The position numbers were made by a program, and so were the translations under genes. A stretch of DNA of 45,906 nt. Origin: Ignavibacteria bacterium (GTDB taxonomy: Bacteria; Bacteroidota; Ignavibacteria; Tepidaquicellales; OLB5). Of this stretch, positions 37,729-45,209 are shown in pieces. The stretch covers positions 1-45,906 of the forward strand of contig JAIOIK010000152.1 in the NCBI GenBank assembly GCA_019912545.1, given 5' to 3'. The notes beneath the pieces were generated by a model, which saw nothing but the letters and a program-made list of their open reading frames with translations, was not told the origin of the DNA and searched no databases. The stretch's first letter is position 1. Each line of letters begins with the position of its first letter.

Positions 37729-38643
37729 TCATTTTTTGTTCTTAATGTAGTCTTCTTCAAACCAATAAGCTTTGGAAACAGAAAGATGTTCTTTGGTAAT
37801 GGGGTCGATAACGACTAGAATTCCGCCTGGTGGATTTTCAATTTGTTGAACATTCGCTTTTATTTCGAACAAAAGGTCTGTTATATGGTCAATGGCTTTA
37901 TTTAATAACCAAAAAGATACATATACCGACGAAAGAACATCACGACCAGCAATTTTTTTCAATTCAGAAAATGTTTTTATTAATTTGGGTGTTGCTACGA
38001 AACCAATTGCTATTGAATTCTTCGAGCCAAGCGTAGCATTCACCGCAATGTCATTCAAATCACCTTTTTCATGAATAATATTAGAACGGTAGCCGTATAA
38101 TTTACTAACAAATTGATCGTGTTTCAAAATAGCTTCTGAAATACTTGAAGGAAATAACAAATTGTTAACGTCTCTAGCTATTCTGGTAAGAGAAGTCCAC
38201 TTTATGTTATTCTGCTTATCTTGTTTTTTAGCATATATATAATTTACTAATGAACTTGTAAAGTCGAATGTCGAAACTATATGGTATAACAAACTGTCGA
38301 ATATTGAAGAAATTTCTTTCTTGTATTGATCTCGAATAGGATGAACCGGACCCATACCTTGTATTATATCCCAATTGCCATCGTTCATCATCTGGACACA
38401 TCTGTGTCTAATTTCAGACTGTTGTCTAATTAACAAATGGATATGGAAATTACTTGAAAACAAGCGATATATTACATTATCTCTTAGTTCATATAAACGA
38501 TTGTTCAAAAAATTATTATCTATGTAATGTTGATAGTCTATAGCAACCGCATATAATCTATTTTCTAATAAATTAAATCTTGCTTGAAGTTTTTCAAATG
38601 CAGCCTTCAAATCATGGATGTCTATTATTTTTTGTGATTCCAA
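37729..38643 (-). CDS. Helical protein with HEPN-like R-x4-H motif, unknown
   Basis: 304 residues, almost entirely alpha-helical by composition, no signal or membrane segment. Residues 182-195 read LYGYRSNIIHEKGD: R186 and H191 form an R-x4-H motif next to a helix end, the arrangement of HEPN-fold RNases. The preceding segments (VHPIRDQYKKEISSIFDSLLYHIVSTFDF; SLTRIARDVNNLLF) fit the long HEPN helices. The residue after Arg is Ser rather than the common Asn/Asp/His, so catalytic activity is uncertain. A C-terminal tail ends PPGGILVVIDPITKEHLSVSKAYWFEEDY. No named family is recognised. It is the last of three island genes in the direction of transcription. Confidence 0.65.
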   Translation of the reverse strand: MESQKIIDIHDLKAAFEKLQARFNLLENRLYAVAIDYQHYIDNNFLNNRLYELRDNVIYRLFSSNFHIHLLIRQQSEIRHRCVQMMNDGNWDIIQGMGPVHPIRDQYKKEISSIFDSLLYHIVSTFDFTSSLVNYIYAKKQDKQNNIKWTSLTRIARDVNNLLFPSSISEAILKHDQFVSKLYGYRSNIIHEKGDLNDIAVNATLGSKNSIAIGFVATPKLIKTFSELKKIAGRDVLSSVYVSFWLLNKAIDHITDLLFEIKANVQQIENPPGGILVVIDPITKEHLSVSKAYWFEEDYIKNKK

Positions 38644-38714
38644 ATTGATAAATGTTTATACCCCATAAAACCATTGACAAACCCCACCAAGCATTGACTA
38701 AAAAGATTAGAGGG

Positions 38715-39350
38715 CTACGGAGAAGATTTGAAAATGTAGTTCCAGATTTCGTTTCTGAAATTGATTAGGATAGTTAATATTAATGCGATAATTGAAATGG
38801 ATATCGCCATTGTTGTTTTTGTACTGTCTCTAAATGGTCTAATATTTTTATTATAATCATTAAACACTTTAGTGAATACTGTATCGACTTGATTAATGTT
38901 GGTATATAAGATATTATAAAAATCTTCTTGAACGTCTAGCTCATGATTTAAGGCTTCTCTGTCTAATTCTATTTCTCTCATTAATGGTCCAACTGAATTT
39001 ACTGCTTTGTTTAGCAAACCTGTTAAATGAGATATTAAGTGCGCGCGAAACATCAGTTGATATTTAGGTGAGATGGGGGGACTATTACGAAATTCTAAAT
39101 CTTGCTTTAATCTCCAAGATGCCTGATTTACAATTGAATCGAGTGAACCTCTAAAAAAACCAATTCCCGGATAGAAATGTTGAGACCATACTTCTGTATT
39201 ACCTCCACTTTCTTCCATAGCATTATATACTGTCATTTTAAAATTATCGTCTAATTTCAAACTTTTTGTAAAGGTATTTAAATCTACTTTAAACTTATTA
39301 AAGATACTGTAAACCTTCCGATTTTTGATTTTATCTCTTAAAGATTTCAT
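38715..39350 (-). CDS. C-terminally membrane-anchored protein, unknown (island gene)
   Basis: 211 residues from ATG 39350 (an in-frame TTG at 39362 would add four). The soluble helical N-terminal part (about 1-175) contains FYPGIGFFRGSLDSIVNQASWRLKQDLEF and a long helix with EIELDREALNHELDVQEDFYN. A single transmembrane helix (about 180-198, TMAISISIIALILTILINF) and a short tail follow. This tail-anchor-like topology suits a membrane effector or sensor, but no family is recognised. It lies between the nuclease-like and HEPN-like genes, with gaps of 112 and 71 nt. Confidence 0.6.
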   Translation of the reverse strand: MKSLRDKIKNRKVYSIFNKFKVDLNTFTKSLKLDDNFKMTVYNAMEESGGNTEVWSQHFYPGIGFFRGSLDSIVNQASWRLKQDLEFRNSPPISPKYQLMFRAHLISHLTGLLNKAVNSVGPLMREIELDREALNHELDVQEDFYNILYTNINQVDTVFTKVFNDYNKNIRPFRDSTKTTMAISISIIALILTILINFRNEIWNYIFKSSP

Positions 39351-39462
39351 AAATAGAAACAACTTTTCAAATTATTCTTCTTACAAACTTCCATAATTTT
39401 CTTTAACTTCTCAGCTTGTTGCACACTCTAATCTATTTCAAGCGTAAACCAGTGTTTTTGAA

Positions 39463-40353
39463 CTATAACACTTTTGAATTCCATATATTTACCGGGTTCA
39501 CTTTTTTAATATTGCCAATAAAGTATTTTTTAACCCCTCGGTATTCCAGACTTTCATGAATCAGTGTTTTTAATCTGCCCGTCTTTTGATCATTATCAAA
39601 TCCAAAAATTAACAAAGTAACCTTTGGATCAAGATCTATTGGCTCCGGTAATGAGATACCAAATAATCTATTTAAAATTCTCACATATTCAGCATACTCA
39701 GATAGAATCTCTGTTTTTCTTTTCTTTATTTGTTTCTCATACCTCTGTAATTGATTAATTACTTTTGGAGTGCTTACTGACCAAATTTCCTTATTTGAAA
39801 AATGCTTTGCTTCAATGAACTGAAGTGTTCTTGTTGATTTATTCAAAAGTATAAAATCAATCCTATCTTGTTTATTCTTTTCATCTAAAGATTCAAATGA
39901 AACTTCGATATCCAATACTACAACATTCCCACTGGACAAGTAAGAATGCTTATGGTAAACATCCGAAATACCGGATGCTTCATTTCCTGAATAATTTGAA
40001 CAGTTCTCTTTAATTCTTAAATAATTTGATTCGAAGTCTGATGAAAGTTTAAAATTAGATAACTGTCTTTCTGTCAAATAATCTTTGTCATCTGCTACTG
40101 ATGTAATAACGGATGCATACTTTAAGTGTGTTTTAAAACCCATTTTATCATAGCGAAAAAGACGTCCTCCTCTGTAATAAATGTCAATCAGATTGTCTCT
40201 AATTGTAAGAAATACTTTGCCCGTTCGGCAATCTTCTTCTACTTTATTTAGCCACAAACTACTCTTTCTAAAACTTTCTTCAATTGCTTTATCTAATCTT
40301 CTCTTCAATGTGATATGATTTCTTATTAATAATATCGATAAGTGACTAGTCAA
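39463..40353 (-). CDS. Predicted PD-(D/E)XK nuclease (island gene)
   Basis: 296 residues from TTG 40353 (no ATG in reach). The N-terminal about 140 residues are of unknown type. The C-terminal half shows a complete restriction-endonuclease-like core: E150 (VVVLDIEVSF), D166 (RIDFILL), E181-A-K183 (LQFIEAKHF) and the RecB-type Q-x3-Y motif Q201LQRY205, followed by alternating strand/helix to the end (VTLLIFGF). The order E, D, ExK, QxxxY is that of RecB/Cas4-like and defence nucleases. It is the promoter-proximal gene of the three-gene island cluster. Target and partners are not known. Confidence 0.68.
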   Translation of the reverse strand: MTSHLSILLIRNHITLKRRLDKAIEESFRKSSLWLNKVEEDCRTGKVFLTIRDNLIDIYYRGGRLFRYDKMGFKTHLKYASVITSVADDKDYLTERQLSNFKLSSDFESNYLRIKENCSNYSGNEASGISDVYHKHSYLSSGNVVVLDIEVSFESLDEKNKQDRIDFILLNKSTRTLQFIEAKHFSNKEIWSVSTPKVINQLQRYEKQIKKRKTEILSEYAEYVRILNRLFGISLPEPIDLDPKVTLLIFGFDNDQKTGRLKTLIHESLEYRGVKKYFIGNIKKVNPVNIWNSKVL

Positions 40354-42001: not shown

Positions 42002-42409
42002 TCATTTGTTCTTCTTCTTATTCATCACCTGCCATGTCCATGAAAATTCAAGCCCATTATCCATCGGATAGATTATCTGGTCATCTTCAGTATCTATCTT
42101 AACATTAACTTCCATTCCTTCCTGAGCTTTAGGCGCCCCCATAGGATACACTTCCCATGTGCATTTTGCCCTGTAGGCCGCTTTATACTGATTGGAAACC
42201 TCAAGTGTAAACTCATATGCCTGGTAATGCCCGCCGCTGCCGGTTCCTCTGAGTCCAACCGAGTGCGAACCGATAATTTTAGCCTTAGCCTTTTCGGCTT
42301 TGTTTTTTCTTGCTTCACGCTCAGCAAGCATCTTTGCGCCGCTTTTTGAAGCATACATGAAGAAGAGCACCACAGAAGCCACAACTCCAAGAATTATTAT
42401 TAATTCCAT
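42002..42409 (-). CDS. Single-pass membrane protein with C-terminal beta domain, unknown
   Basis: 135 residues. An N-terminal transmembrane helix (2-20, ELIIILGVVASVVLFFMYA), a charged helix (KMLAEREARKNKAEKAKAK), then a beta-rich domain (about 45-125) with KIIGSHSVGLRGTGSGGHYQ...FTLEV and GMEVNVKIDTEDDQIIYP. This recalls DUF3592-like layouts (transmembrane helix plus a conversion-type beta domain) but is not a confident match. It lies 22 nt after the AAA+ gene on the same strand, so it is probably its operon partner. Confidence 0.65.
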   Translation of the reverse strand: MELIIILGVVASVVLFFMYASKSGAKMLAEREARKNKAEKAKAKIIGSHSVGLRGTGSGGHYQAYEFTLEVSNQYKAAYRAKCTWEVYPMGAPKAQEGMEVNVKIDTEDDQIIYPMDNGLEFSWTWQVMNKKKNK

Positions 42410-42431: not shown

Positions 42432-45041
42432 TTAGAATCCAAATCTTTTCTCTTCCTTAATTTCAGTTGTCAATTCTTCAACATCTTTAAGTGTAATAGT
42501 CTTTATCATCTCGGTTGTTCTTTGCTCTTTTGGAACCTCAGCAAGCCTCAGGTTCTGGTTTTTAACTGCTTCGGCAAGTGATTTCCTTATCTCTCTTGCA
42601 TTGCCAAAAAATTTATCCCTTGTACTGAACAAAGCGGCAATATGCCTTCTGAAATACTCTTCGGCCTCTTTATCAAAAGCTGCTTCATCATGATCAAGCA
42701 TTATTTTTGCTATTGCAAACATCTCGTCTTCAGAATAATCCTTAAAAAAGAATTTCCTATCGAACCTTGATTTTAGCCCGGGGTTCATAAGCAGGAATTT
42801 TTCCATTTCCTCAGGGTAACCGGCACAAATTACAACAAACTGCCCTCGGTTATCTTCCATCCGTTTAAGTATAATCTCAATAGCTTCCTTGCCGAAATCA
42901 TTATCACTTGAACCCATCAGTGAATAAGCTTCATCAATAAATAATACACCGCCCATAGCAGCATCTATCTTCTCACCTGTTTTAATAGCTGTCTGCCCAA
43001 TATATCCCGCAATCAGTTCTTCTCTGTCAACTTCAACCAGGTGGCCGCGCTCCAGCACTCCAAGCGCCCGGAAGATCCTTGCCATTATTCTTGCAACGGT
43101 TGTTTTACCAGTACCGGGATTCCCGGTAAAAATGGTATGAAGCGAAAATGATCTTGTAACATCTTTGCCAATTTCACGGTAATACCTCACAAGCTTCACC
43201 ATTTCATGAATATCATTTTTTATCTCTTCAATACCTACCATCTTATTCAGCTCAGCAAGCGAGTCGCGCATTAGCTCCTCATCAGGAGGAATGTCAACTC
43301 CCTTATGCGCTTTCTTTCTGAATATTTCTTTAACATCTGTAACTGTTATTGTAGAAAGAGCTATTTCATCCAGAGCCTCGATCTTAACATTGCCATCCAT
43401 AACCCTGAGCCCCATATTCATTTTCCCTTCATCAACTATGGAATTGACAAAACGCGCATTGCCAAATGTCCGGTCTCTATCACGGTATGCCTCAACCAGT
43501 TTTGTGTAAAGATATTCCTCTGAATCCTTATCCAGGTCAACATCTATCTGCTCTGCGTGGTAGTTACCTATCTGCAGCAGCTCGGTTGGAGTGTAATCCG
43601 GAAAATTGAAATAGTGATTAAACCTTGATTTAAAGCCGGGGTTAGAGTCCAGTAAATGTTCCATTTCTTCCGGGTAACCCGCAAGGATTATAGCGATATC
43701 ACCCGGCCCGTCTGACATTTCTTTTAGAATTACTTCGATAGCTTCTTTTCCGAAATCCTTGTCGCTATCGCCTTTCCTTGCCAGAGAATATGCTTCATCG
43801 ATAAACAAAATGCCGCCTCTAGCTTTCTTAATAGCTTCTTTTACCTTCGGAGCAGTTTGCCCAATGTATTCACCGATTATATCAGCCCTTCCAACTTCGT
43901 GAACATGACCTTTTGAGAGAAGGCCTATATTACTGTATATCTTTCCGAGCAGCATACCAACTTTTGTTTTTCCTGTCCCGGGATTCCCTGTAAATACTGC
44001 ATGAAGATTCATTTTTTCTGTATCGTCAAATCCTTTTTCTTTTCTCAGCTTTACAAACTTCAGATAGTCGTACAGATCCTTAATGTTTTCTTTTATGCTG
44101 GCAAGCCCTATCATTTCATTAATTTCTTTCATGATCTCGGCTTCGCTCAATTGTATCTTCGGGGCAGCAGCATTCAAACCAAGCGAAGGAACGCTCTCTC
44201 CCGGTTTGAAGAATTTTCCGGCATCAGGATCAGTTTCTTCTATATCAGCAAACTTAATATAAACAGTCCCAAGCAGCTGCTCAAGAAAAACAACATCTAC
44301 TATATAATTCCCGGCGTACCAGCTTCCGGGTTCTTTTCCGCCCCAACCGCGTGTAAAGCGTATCAATCCAAGATTGCTATTATAAGTATAGAAATCAGTT
44401 ATATTGGCAACTACATCCCCGGCAGTATTGCGTATCCTTATAAAAAATTCTCCATGCCAAGCAGCTTTCCCGCTTTGAAGATTATCGCCCTCAATTTCTA
44501 TCCACATATAACGCGATTTTGTGATATCAAATGTCTTCAGGTAATTTCTCTGTCCGAACGGAATATCTTCAAACGGGCCTTCGTAAAGCTTAACTGAGCT
44601 AAGGCTGAAGTATGGATTGCTTTCCGGTGTAACTTCGCCTTCACCAAGAGTATAAAAATACGCAGTTCCCGTAAGTACACCGTCTATCCATGCTTCCCAG
44701 CGATAAGCCCCTTTGAACCAGTAAGTTCCTACTGTAGTATTTCCCCACGAATAGCGTATATATGAAACATCTTCTGATTTACTTACCGGCTGCGATATTA
44801 CATTATCACAAAGCACTCTATTGGCAGCATCAAAAGCCTTAAAATTAACATTAACAGCCCAGTCTTCCCTTTCGAACATCAGGTTGTGTAAAGAAAGCTC
44901 AACATATATATACTTGATCTTTAAAGCGTCAAATACCTGGCGATATTTTTTTGTAGAGCCATAAAGCCAATCGTTTGAACCGTATGTTTTCAGTGCTTTG
45001 AATTTGTACTTGTTTGCAGAAATTGGATTAGTCTGTGTCAT
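42432..45041 (-). CDS. Large AAA+ protein: two N-terminal beta-sandwich-like repeats + two CbxX/CfqX AAA+ modules
   Basis: 869 residues, soluble. Residues 18-133 and 151-265 look like two copies of one beta-rich domain: each has K(Y/S)xYxxxE(L/I), a tryptophan about 15 residues on, F(K/I).(F/R)...G/D.V, a GSW/TYW-like Y.aG.Y motif, and (L)LGT/LTGTxYxxF. A linker (268-300) follows, then AAA1 with Walker A GNPGTGKT (352-359), pore-like EYIGQT (391-396), Walker B LFIDEA (412-417), arginine-finger region KSRF (471-474) and GNAR (527-530). AAA2 has GNPGTGKTT (640-648), GYIGQT (679-684), LFIDEA (700-705), KSRF (757-760) and GNAR (813-816). CbxX/CfqX (SpoVK, Rubisco activase CbbX, EccA) ATPases remodel protein complexes; no Rubisco or ESX genes are nearby. 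The substrate is unknown. Confidence 0.9.
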   Translation of the reverse strand: MTQTNPISANKYKFKALKTYGSNDWLYGSTKKYRQVFDALKIKYIYVELSLHNLMFEREDWAVNVNFKAFDAANRVLCDNVISQPVSKSEDVSYIRYSWGNTTVGTYWFKGAYRWEAWIDGVLTGTAYFYTLGEGEVTPESNPYFSLSSVKLYEGPFEDIPFGQRNYLKTFDITKSRYMWIEIEGDNLQSGKAAWHGEFFIRIRNTAGDVVANITDFYTYNSNLGLIRFTRGWGGKEPGSWYAGNYIVDVVFLEQLLGTVYIKFADIEETDPDAGKFFKPGESVPSLGLNAAAPKIQLSEAEIMKEINEMIGLASIKENIKDLYDYLKFVKLRKEKGFDDTEKMNLHAVFTGNPGTGKTKVGMLLGKIYSNIGLLSKGHVHEVGRADIIGEYIGQTAPKVKEAIKKARGGILFIDEAYSLARKGDSDKDFGKEAIEVILKEMSDGPGDIAIILAGYPEEMEHLLDSNPGFKSRFNHYFNFPDYTPTELLQIGNYHAEQIDVDLDKDSEEYLYTKLVEAYRDRDRTFGNARFVNSIVDEGKMNMGLRVMDGNVKIEALDEIALSTITVTDVKEIFRKKAHKGVDIPPDEELMRDSLAELNKMVGIEEIKNDIHEMVKLVRYYREIGKDVTRSFSLHTIFTGNPGTGKTTVARIMARIFRALGVLERGHLVEVDREELIAGYIGQTAIKTGEKIDAAMGGVLFIDEAYSLMGSSDNDFGKEAIEIILKRMEDNRGQFVVICAGYPEEMEKFLLMNPGLKSRFDRKFFFKDYSEDEMFAIAKIMLDHDEAAFDKEAEEYFRRHIAALFSTRDKFFGNAREIRKSLAEAVKNQNLRLAEVPKEQRTTEMIKTITLKDVEELTTEIKEEKRFGF

Positions 45042-45086
45042 ATTCTACAATCATAAACACCTGTAAATTCATATTCAATGTAAAAC

Positions 45087-45110
45087 AAAAAGAGCGGTTT
45101 TACCCGCTCT
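45087..45110 (-). terminator. Rho-independent terminator of a small unit upstream of the AAA+ gene
   Basis: Minus strand AGAGCGG-GTAAAA-CCGCTCT (7-bp perfect stem) followed by TTTTGTTTT. It lies upstream of the AAA+ start, so it ends a transcript from the 45111-45235 region or residual read-through from the transporter. Confidence 0.75.
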
Positions 45111-45137: not shown

Positions 45138-45209
45138 CTATGCTACTGATTTAACCAGGCTTTTCTTATCATCAATTGTTCTTCAGACGGATTCTCTGAT
45201 TGATTTCAT
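45138..45209 (-). other. Possible mini-ORF or small RNA between two terminators
   Basis: The 125 nt between two minus-strand terminators holds ATG 45209 reading MKSIRESV, then TGA, then RTIDDKKSLVKSVA and TAG (45138). Without the in-frame TGA this would be a 23-codon ORF; a +1 shift at the TGA would instead give EEQLMIRKAWLNQ and TAG. Either reading may be chance at this length. The double-terminator layout itself suggests a short transcript. Confidence 0.3.

Follow-up and report, generated by a model that had tools for sequence, protein, structure and literature searches.

Two predicted beta-sandwich domains precede tandem SpoVK/CbbX/EccA-clade AAA+ modules in a Bacteroidota protein family

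Introduction

What does a protein do that carries two related beta-rich domains ahead of two CbxX/CfqX-type AAA+ modules, and is such an arrangement peculiar to one genome or the mark of a family? The question arose from a 45,906-nucleotide stretch of DNA of an Ignavibacteria bacterium (contig JAIOIK010000152.1, referred to here as the window), in which a minus-strand ORF of 869 codons runs from an ATG at 45041 to a stop at 42432. A sequence-only reading had described this ORF as an unusual fusion in which the N-terminal domains serve as a ligand- or partner-binding sensor for a tandem remodelling motor. We analysed its domains, relatives, predicted structure and gene neighbourhood. A literature search found no paper describing a sandwich pair joined to tandem AAA modules.

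Results

Architecture of the 869-residue protein

The coding sequence (42432..45041, minus strand) comprises two beta-sandwich domains followed by two AAA+ modules of the SpoVK/CbbX/EccA clade. Domain searches of the ORF returned two AAA and two AAA_lid_6 matches and no peptidase domain. No signal peptide is visible, and a cytosolic location is therefore expected. In a full-length model (pLDDT 82.9, pTM 0.39) the individual domains, including two complete AAA+ modules with their lids, were predicted with confidence, while their mutual arrangement was not.

The N-terminal region is an internal repeat, made up of N1 (residues 9-138; 44628..45017, minus strand) and N2 (residues 141-270; 44232..44621, minus strand). 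Smith-Waterman alignment of the two gave Z-scores of 10.8-11.2, with 0 of 500 shuffles scoring as well, and profiles built from 47 homologues aligned by hhalign over 125 columns (probability 98.5, E 2e-15). The proposal that the two halves are related, and head a tandem CbxX-type motor, is borne out by these alignments and by the paired AAA matches. AlphaFold2 modelling of residues 1-288 from a 47-sequence alignment gave an all-beta structure of two eight-strand sandwiches (mean pLDDT 88.7, pTM 0.82), with strands spanning residues 12-132 in N1 and 145-265 in N2, and N1 and N2 are thus both predicted to be immunoglobulin-like beta-sandwiches. The sandwiches end at about residues 267-270, close to the boundary of about 265 residues drawn in the sequence-only reading, and are followed by a variable linker (residues 271-300; 44142..44231, minus strand) that has low model confidence and zero invariant columns.

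Residues 1-275 had no accepted match in Pfam, NCBIfam, PHROGs or PDB sequences, and no known AAA+ N-domain matched the N-terminus. Identity with DUF6941 or DUF3859 was considered and not accepted, the Pfam matches being sporadic and weak: among 47 members searched at E values up to 5, DUF6941 reached at best 0.01, in 5 members, and DUF3859 matched a relative at 0.0024. The best PDB profile match, an agarase (E 0.15), was attributed to chance. Zero relatives of the N-domain were found in the viral contigs scanned. N1 is the better conserved half, with 19 invariant columns of 130 among 35 homologues as compared with 9 of 130 for N2, and mean column identity across the phylum is 64% for N1 and 55% for N2. 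Conserved tryptophans are many (W61, W99, W108, W115 and W241). Conservation of the N-domain across the phylum argues for a specific binding role, and the suggested function as a ligand- or partner-binding sensor is plausible.

Both AAA+ modules retain catalytic and pore-loop motifs

The first module with its lid, D1 (residues 301-579; 43305..44141, minus strand), contains the Walker A motif GNPGTGKT (352-359), a pore loop EYIGQTAPK (391-399), the Walker B motif LFIDEAY (412-418), GY at 455-456, an arginine finger at R473 and a sensor-2 motif GNAR (527-530). The second, D2 (residues 588-863; 42453..43280, minus strand), has the corresponding elements GNPGTGKT (640-647), GYIGQTAIK (679-687), LFIDEAY (700-706), GY (741-742), R759 and GNAR (813-816). 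Across 35 homologues the Walker A, Walker B, GY sensor-1, arginine finger and sensor-2 arginine positions of both modules are invariant or nearly so. The pore-loop position is Tyr or Phe in 69 of 70 module sequences (35/35 for D1, 34/35 for D2), and this column aligns with a tyrosine in CbbX, where the Y114A mutant keeps its ATPase but loses activase function (PMC5437159). Intact motifs together with the pore-loop aromatic residue make both modules look ATPase-competent and substrate-gripping.

Features of the SpoVK/CbbX/EccA clade were taken as defined in PMC10659427. The AAA core (PF00004, 110 bits) and AAA_lid_6 (PF17866, 85.5 bits) are each present in two copies, well above cut-off. The sensor-1 GY (G455-Y456, G741-Y742) and the second arginine, at sensor-2 (R530, R816), were found in 35/35 homologues. 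An asparagine before the first arginine finger (N467, N753) is invariant and aligns with its counterparts in CbbX, SpoVK and EccA, although we count six residues from it to the SRF arginine as opposed to four in PMC10659427. In the predicted model a two-helix hairpin (300-309/314-335 and 588-600/605-623) lies ahead of each P-loop strand. These features place both modules in the clade.

Relation to CbbX, SpoVK, EccA and other systems

Scores against equivalog models separate the protein from the named members of the clade. Against the SpoVK model TIGR02881 (cut-off 423) the whole protein scored 530, whereas the modules alone scored 275 and 268; the whole-protein score is the sum of two modules, and its passing of the cut-off is therefore an artefact. 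The same summation can carry other multi-AAA proteins past this cut-off, a misannotation trap: in phyla that do not sporulate, they could be labelled 'stage V sporulation protein K'. The CbbX model TIGR02880 (cut-off 459) gave 453 for the whole protein and 233 and 229 per module. The EccA model TIGR03922 (cut-off 467) gave 412, and the N-domain, being all-beta, also lacks the TPR character of EccA.

CbbX, the activase of red-type Rubisco, has the clade, lid, pore-loop tyrosine, Walker motifs and GY sensor-1 in common with D1 and D2, but carries a single AAA module without a beta-sandwich and is encoded beside red-type Rubisco. Earlier, Rubisco had been reported missing near the gene, and this holds genome-wide: RuBisCO_large had no match in the 99.7% complete genome, while control genomes did match. 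D1 and D2 also fall outside CbbX in the tree. No other AAA_lid_6 protein was found in the same genome. SpoVK, the MurG chaperone of sporulating Firmicutes, is the best-scoring NCBIfam model for each module, and the chaperone logic is likely shared; SpoVK differs in its N-domain, in module number (two here), in forming a separate clade and in that the modules score below its cut-off individually. EccA of type VII secretion likewise places an N-terminal recognition region ahead of an AAA module, but this is a TPR/beta-helix domain with one AAA, and of the three proteins EccA lies farthest away in the tree; no type VII secretion genes were seen among the neighbours scanned. Cdc48/p97, NSF and ClpB also combine an N-domain with two AAA modules per chain and offer a comparison of how the machine may work, though they belong to a different AAA clade. 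A reading as a defence system was rejected: PADLOC matches (IetA, TRIP13, DolB) scored no more than 46 bits and fall on the generic AAA core, and outside one insertion the neighbours of the AAA+ gene are not defence genes.

The architecture is an inherited family

A scan of genome contigs recovered 46 loci, of which 45 encode the N-domains with two AAA modules, mostly as complete frames of 862-896 residues (L055 has a late start following a frameshift, and L073 continues past the end of its contig). In the remaining locus, L070, the contig ends within D1. These loci belong to Ignavibacteria, to MAGs of the Bacteroidia and, in one case, to a MAG labelled Aminicenantes. The gene is present in 12 of 13 genomes of the window's genus, the thirteenth being 64% complete, and some form of the N-domain occurs in 50 of 294 genomes of the class sample and 28 of 395 of the phylum sample. 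The fusion is thus not the oddity it was first taken for but a vertically inherited family in several Bacteroidota groups.

Other arrangements were also found. One protein of 598 residues (L127) has a single AAA module, and proteins of about 1290-1370 residues in other families of the same class (L124, L132, L134, L135, L137) combine TPR, one sandwich and three AAA modules. Two-sandwich proteins with a signal peptide and no AAA module occur at L045, L046, L123 and L125, and L126 encodes a secreted 661-residue protein with two sandwiches and no AAA. The secreted sandwich proteins carry a GWGWDEPGNW...G.Y.VEI motif, and in two genomes lie downstream of a ccmB-like gene (named by eye). One triple-AAA gene (L134:8230-12270) immediately follows groES-groEL in its genome; the other triple-AAA genes examined are not so placed.

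In an IQ-TREE phylogeny of 56 AAA modules, D1 and D2 each formed a clade (support 100/99 and 100/97), and these separate clades point to an old duplication and to inheritance of the architecture, not to a recent accident. The triple form has a D2 that groups as sister to the double-form D2 (100/99), and the module of the single-AAA protein is itself of the D2 type. D1 and D2 lie within a Bacteroidota group apart from CbbX, SpoVK and EccA with modest support (80/76), while the partner of SpoVK in the tree is a Geosporobacter protein (100/97) and not D1 or D2. A Ligilactobacillus plasmid protein (L146:852-3629) shows an independent tandem duplication of this type of AAA module, its two copies being each other's closest kin. 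In an order mate a CbbX-like single-AAA gene lies beside the AAA+ gene (L042:10661-11871) and is split into ORFs of 264 and 136 residues, apparently by a frameshift. In an OLB5 MAG the AAA+ gene itself is frameshifted near residue 30 at an A run (L039:9924-10030), probably through a homopolymer error or recent mutation.

Gene neighbourhood and a small membrane-anchored protein

Gene order in the genus is pstS-pstC-pstA-pstB-phoU-DUF47-pitA, then in most members an M61 peptidase gene, the AAA+ gene and a gene for a small protein. Of the 12 genus genomes, 10 have an intact M61 gene separating pitA from the AAA+ gene. In the window, by comparison with these copies, the M61 glycyl-aminopeptidase gene has been lost, and a scar at this place (45143..45190, minus strand) retains its last 15 codons and stop, coding PSEEQLMIRKAWLNQ-stop. 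Between the phosphate/M61 genes and the AAA+ gene is an intrinsic terminator (AGAGCGG GTAAAA CCGCTCT, then T-rich; 45083..45110, minus strand), and at this position 11 of the 12 genus members have a hairpin with a T tail. About 44 bp of strongly conserved sequence, ending TTTATGATTGTAGAAT, lead up to the start codon (45042..45085, minus strand) and are probably the promoter or leader of the AAA+ gene. Given the terminator and the conserved block, the AAA+ gene and the gene for the small protein probably form a transcription unit of their own.

This 135-residue protein (42002..42409, minus strand) starts 22 bp past the AAA+ stop and has one N-terminal hydrophobic segment with a basic flank, which probably leaves its C-terminal domain in the cytosol. 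Its gene follows the AAA+ gene in 12 of 12 congeneric genomes, with a gap of 15-22 bp (49 in one), and is duplicated in at least three of them. Homologues outside the genus are unlinked to the AAA+ gene and occur also in genomes that lack it, so the small protein cannot be a universal partner; within the genus its position makes it the best local candidate for a partner or membrane anchor.

At 37729-40353 the window contains three minus-strand ORFs (304, 215 and 296 residues) that are not in congeners; they are flanked by HIT-domain and DUF1543 genes, which several relatives have next to each other. A weak HSDR_N/PD-(D/E)XK-like match (E 0.0019) was obtained for the 296-residue protein, which also contains a DRIDFIL...IEAK motif, and the segment is possibly a small nuclease-bearing island.

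Discussion

A proposed peptidase-free remodelling chaperone

Members of the clade have no peptidase associations, act on dedicated targets and possess variable N-domains thought to recruit substrate; SpoVK, for example, requires its own N-terminus to bind MurG (PMC10659427). In the light of this knowledge, a client-specific remodeller is the best reading of the 869-residue protein. We propose, with a probability of roughly 0.62, that it is a cytosolic, peptidase-free AAA+ remodelling chaperone. The N1 and N2 sandwiches would recognise a dedicated client or adaptor, and D1 and D2, both equipped for ATP hydrolysis, would assemble into a hexameric ring or rings. Using the pore-loop aromatic residues, these would pull on the client, drawing one of its tails or loops through the pore, and the client would be remodelled or activated rather than handed to a protease. 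Within the genus, the 135-residue membrane protein would probably either anchor the remodeller to the inner membrane or itself be the client. The protein represents a Bacteroidota family of remodelling ATPases whose N-terminal recognition module lies outside all protein-family libraries searched. The known members of the clade are all dedicated chaperones (for Rubisco, MurG and type VII secretion), and identification of the client would probably bring to light a regulated complex not seen before.

Alternative readings

Fold comparisons could be taken to suggest another role for the sandwiches, as a sensor of carbohydrates or lipid-linked glycans like the cytosolic domain of the O-antigen ABC transporter Wzt, the motor then acting on an enzyme of envelope biosynthesis. 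The top structural neighbour by Z is the carbohydrate-binding domain of Aquifex Wzt, matched to N2 (Z 10.6, rmsd 2.4, 106 aligned residues, 16% identity), and over both sandwiches Foldseek ranked the biofilm matrix protein RbmA first (E 4e-8). The many conserved tryptophans also count in favour, and the sister ATPase SpoVK targets an envelope enzyme, MurG (PMC10659427). However, the Ig-like domains of GH2 enzymes (Z of about 10) and other unrelated Ig-like domains score within one Z unit, which shows no more than a common fold. Wzt and RbmA have the Ig/FnIII-like beta-sandwich in common with N1 and N2, but no PDB chain gave a credible sequence match, and homology to Wzt_C was rejected after comparison with 14 Bacteroidota Wzt_C domains (hhalign probability 2.6% or less). 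We consider a glycan sensor unlikely.

The gene order invites a further reading, in which the machine serves phosphate uptake by remodelling PitA, Pst or PhoU-type proteins. In its favour, the order from pst to the small protein is kept in the genus and pitA precedes the AAA+ gene in all 12 genomes. Against it, the terminator hairpin and a separate conserved block intervene in 11 of 12, which weakens the case for membership of a phosphate operon, and the AAA+ gene has no conserved neighbours outside the genus, where the linkage is lost. A role in phosphate uptake is thus very improbable.

Ring geometry

A geometry other than two stacked rings would be compatible with the client-specific remodelling chaperone preferred here. 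Linked AAA modules may lie side by side in one hexameric ring, formed by three chains of two modules in the present protein and, in relatives, by two chains of three or six chains of one. Relatives have exactly one, two or three AAA modules, all divisors of six, and the connection between D1 and D2 is short, about 8 residues. Some relatives contain decayed modules, and in red-algal CbbX, where two subunit types associate 1:1 as a hetero-oligomer, one of the two has a mainly structural part (PMC5437159). On the other hand, no motif is lost from either module of the 869-residue protein. In the commoner design, tandem modules form double rings, as in Cdc48, NSF and ClpB; this too counts against a single ring, and we consider the one-ring arrangement rather unlikely. 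More doubtful is a general scheme in which N1/N2 would be an undescribed Ig-like recognition module, used by Bacteroidota both in secreted proteins and, in the cytosol, as a client-recruiting head on a remodeller specific to the lineage, with the one-, two- and three-AAA versions all concatenating into one asymmetric hexameric ring bearing 6, 3 or 2 heads. The series of one, two and three AAA modules provides a natural experiment in the evolution of AAA rings from separate to linked subunits.

The decay is visible in two relatives. The third module of L124:7312-11205 reads LFIKDVH at Walker B, and the second module of L133:8200-10494 is about 25% identical and without the usual motifs; these sequences suggest that the decayed modules may act as structural subunits.
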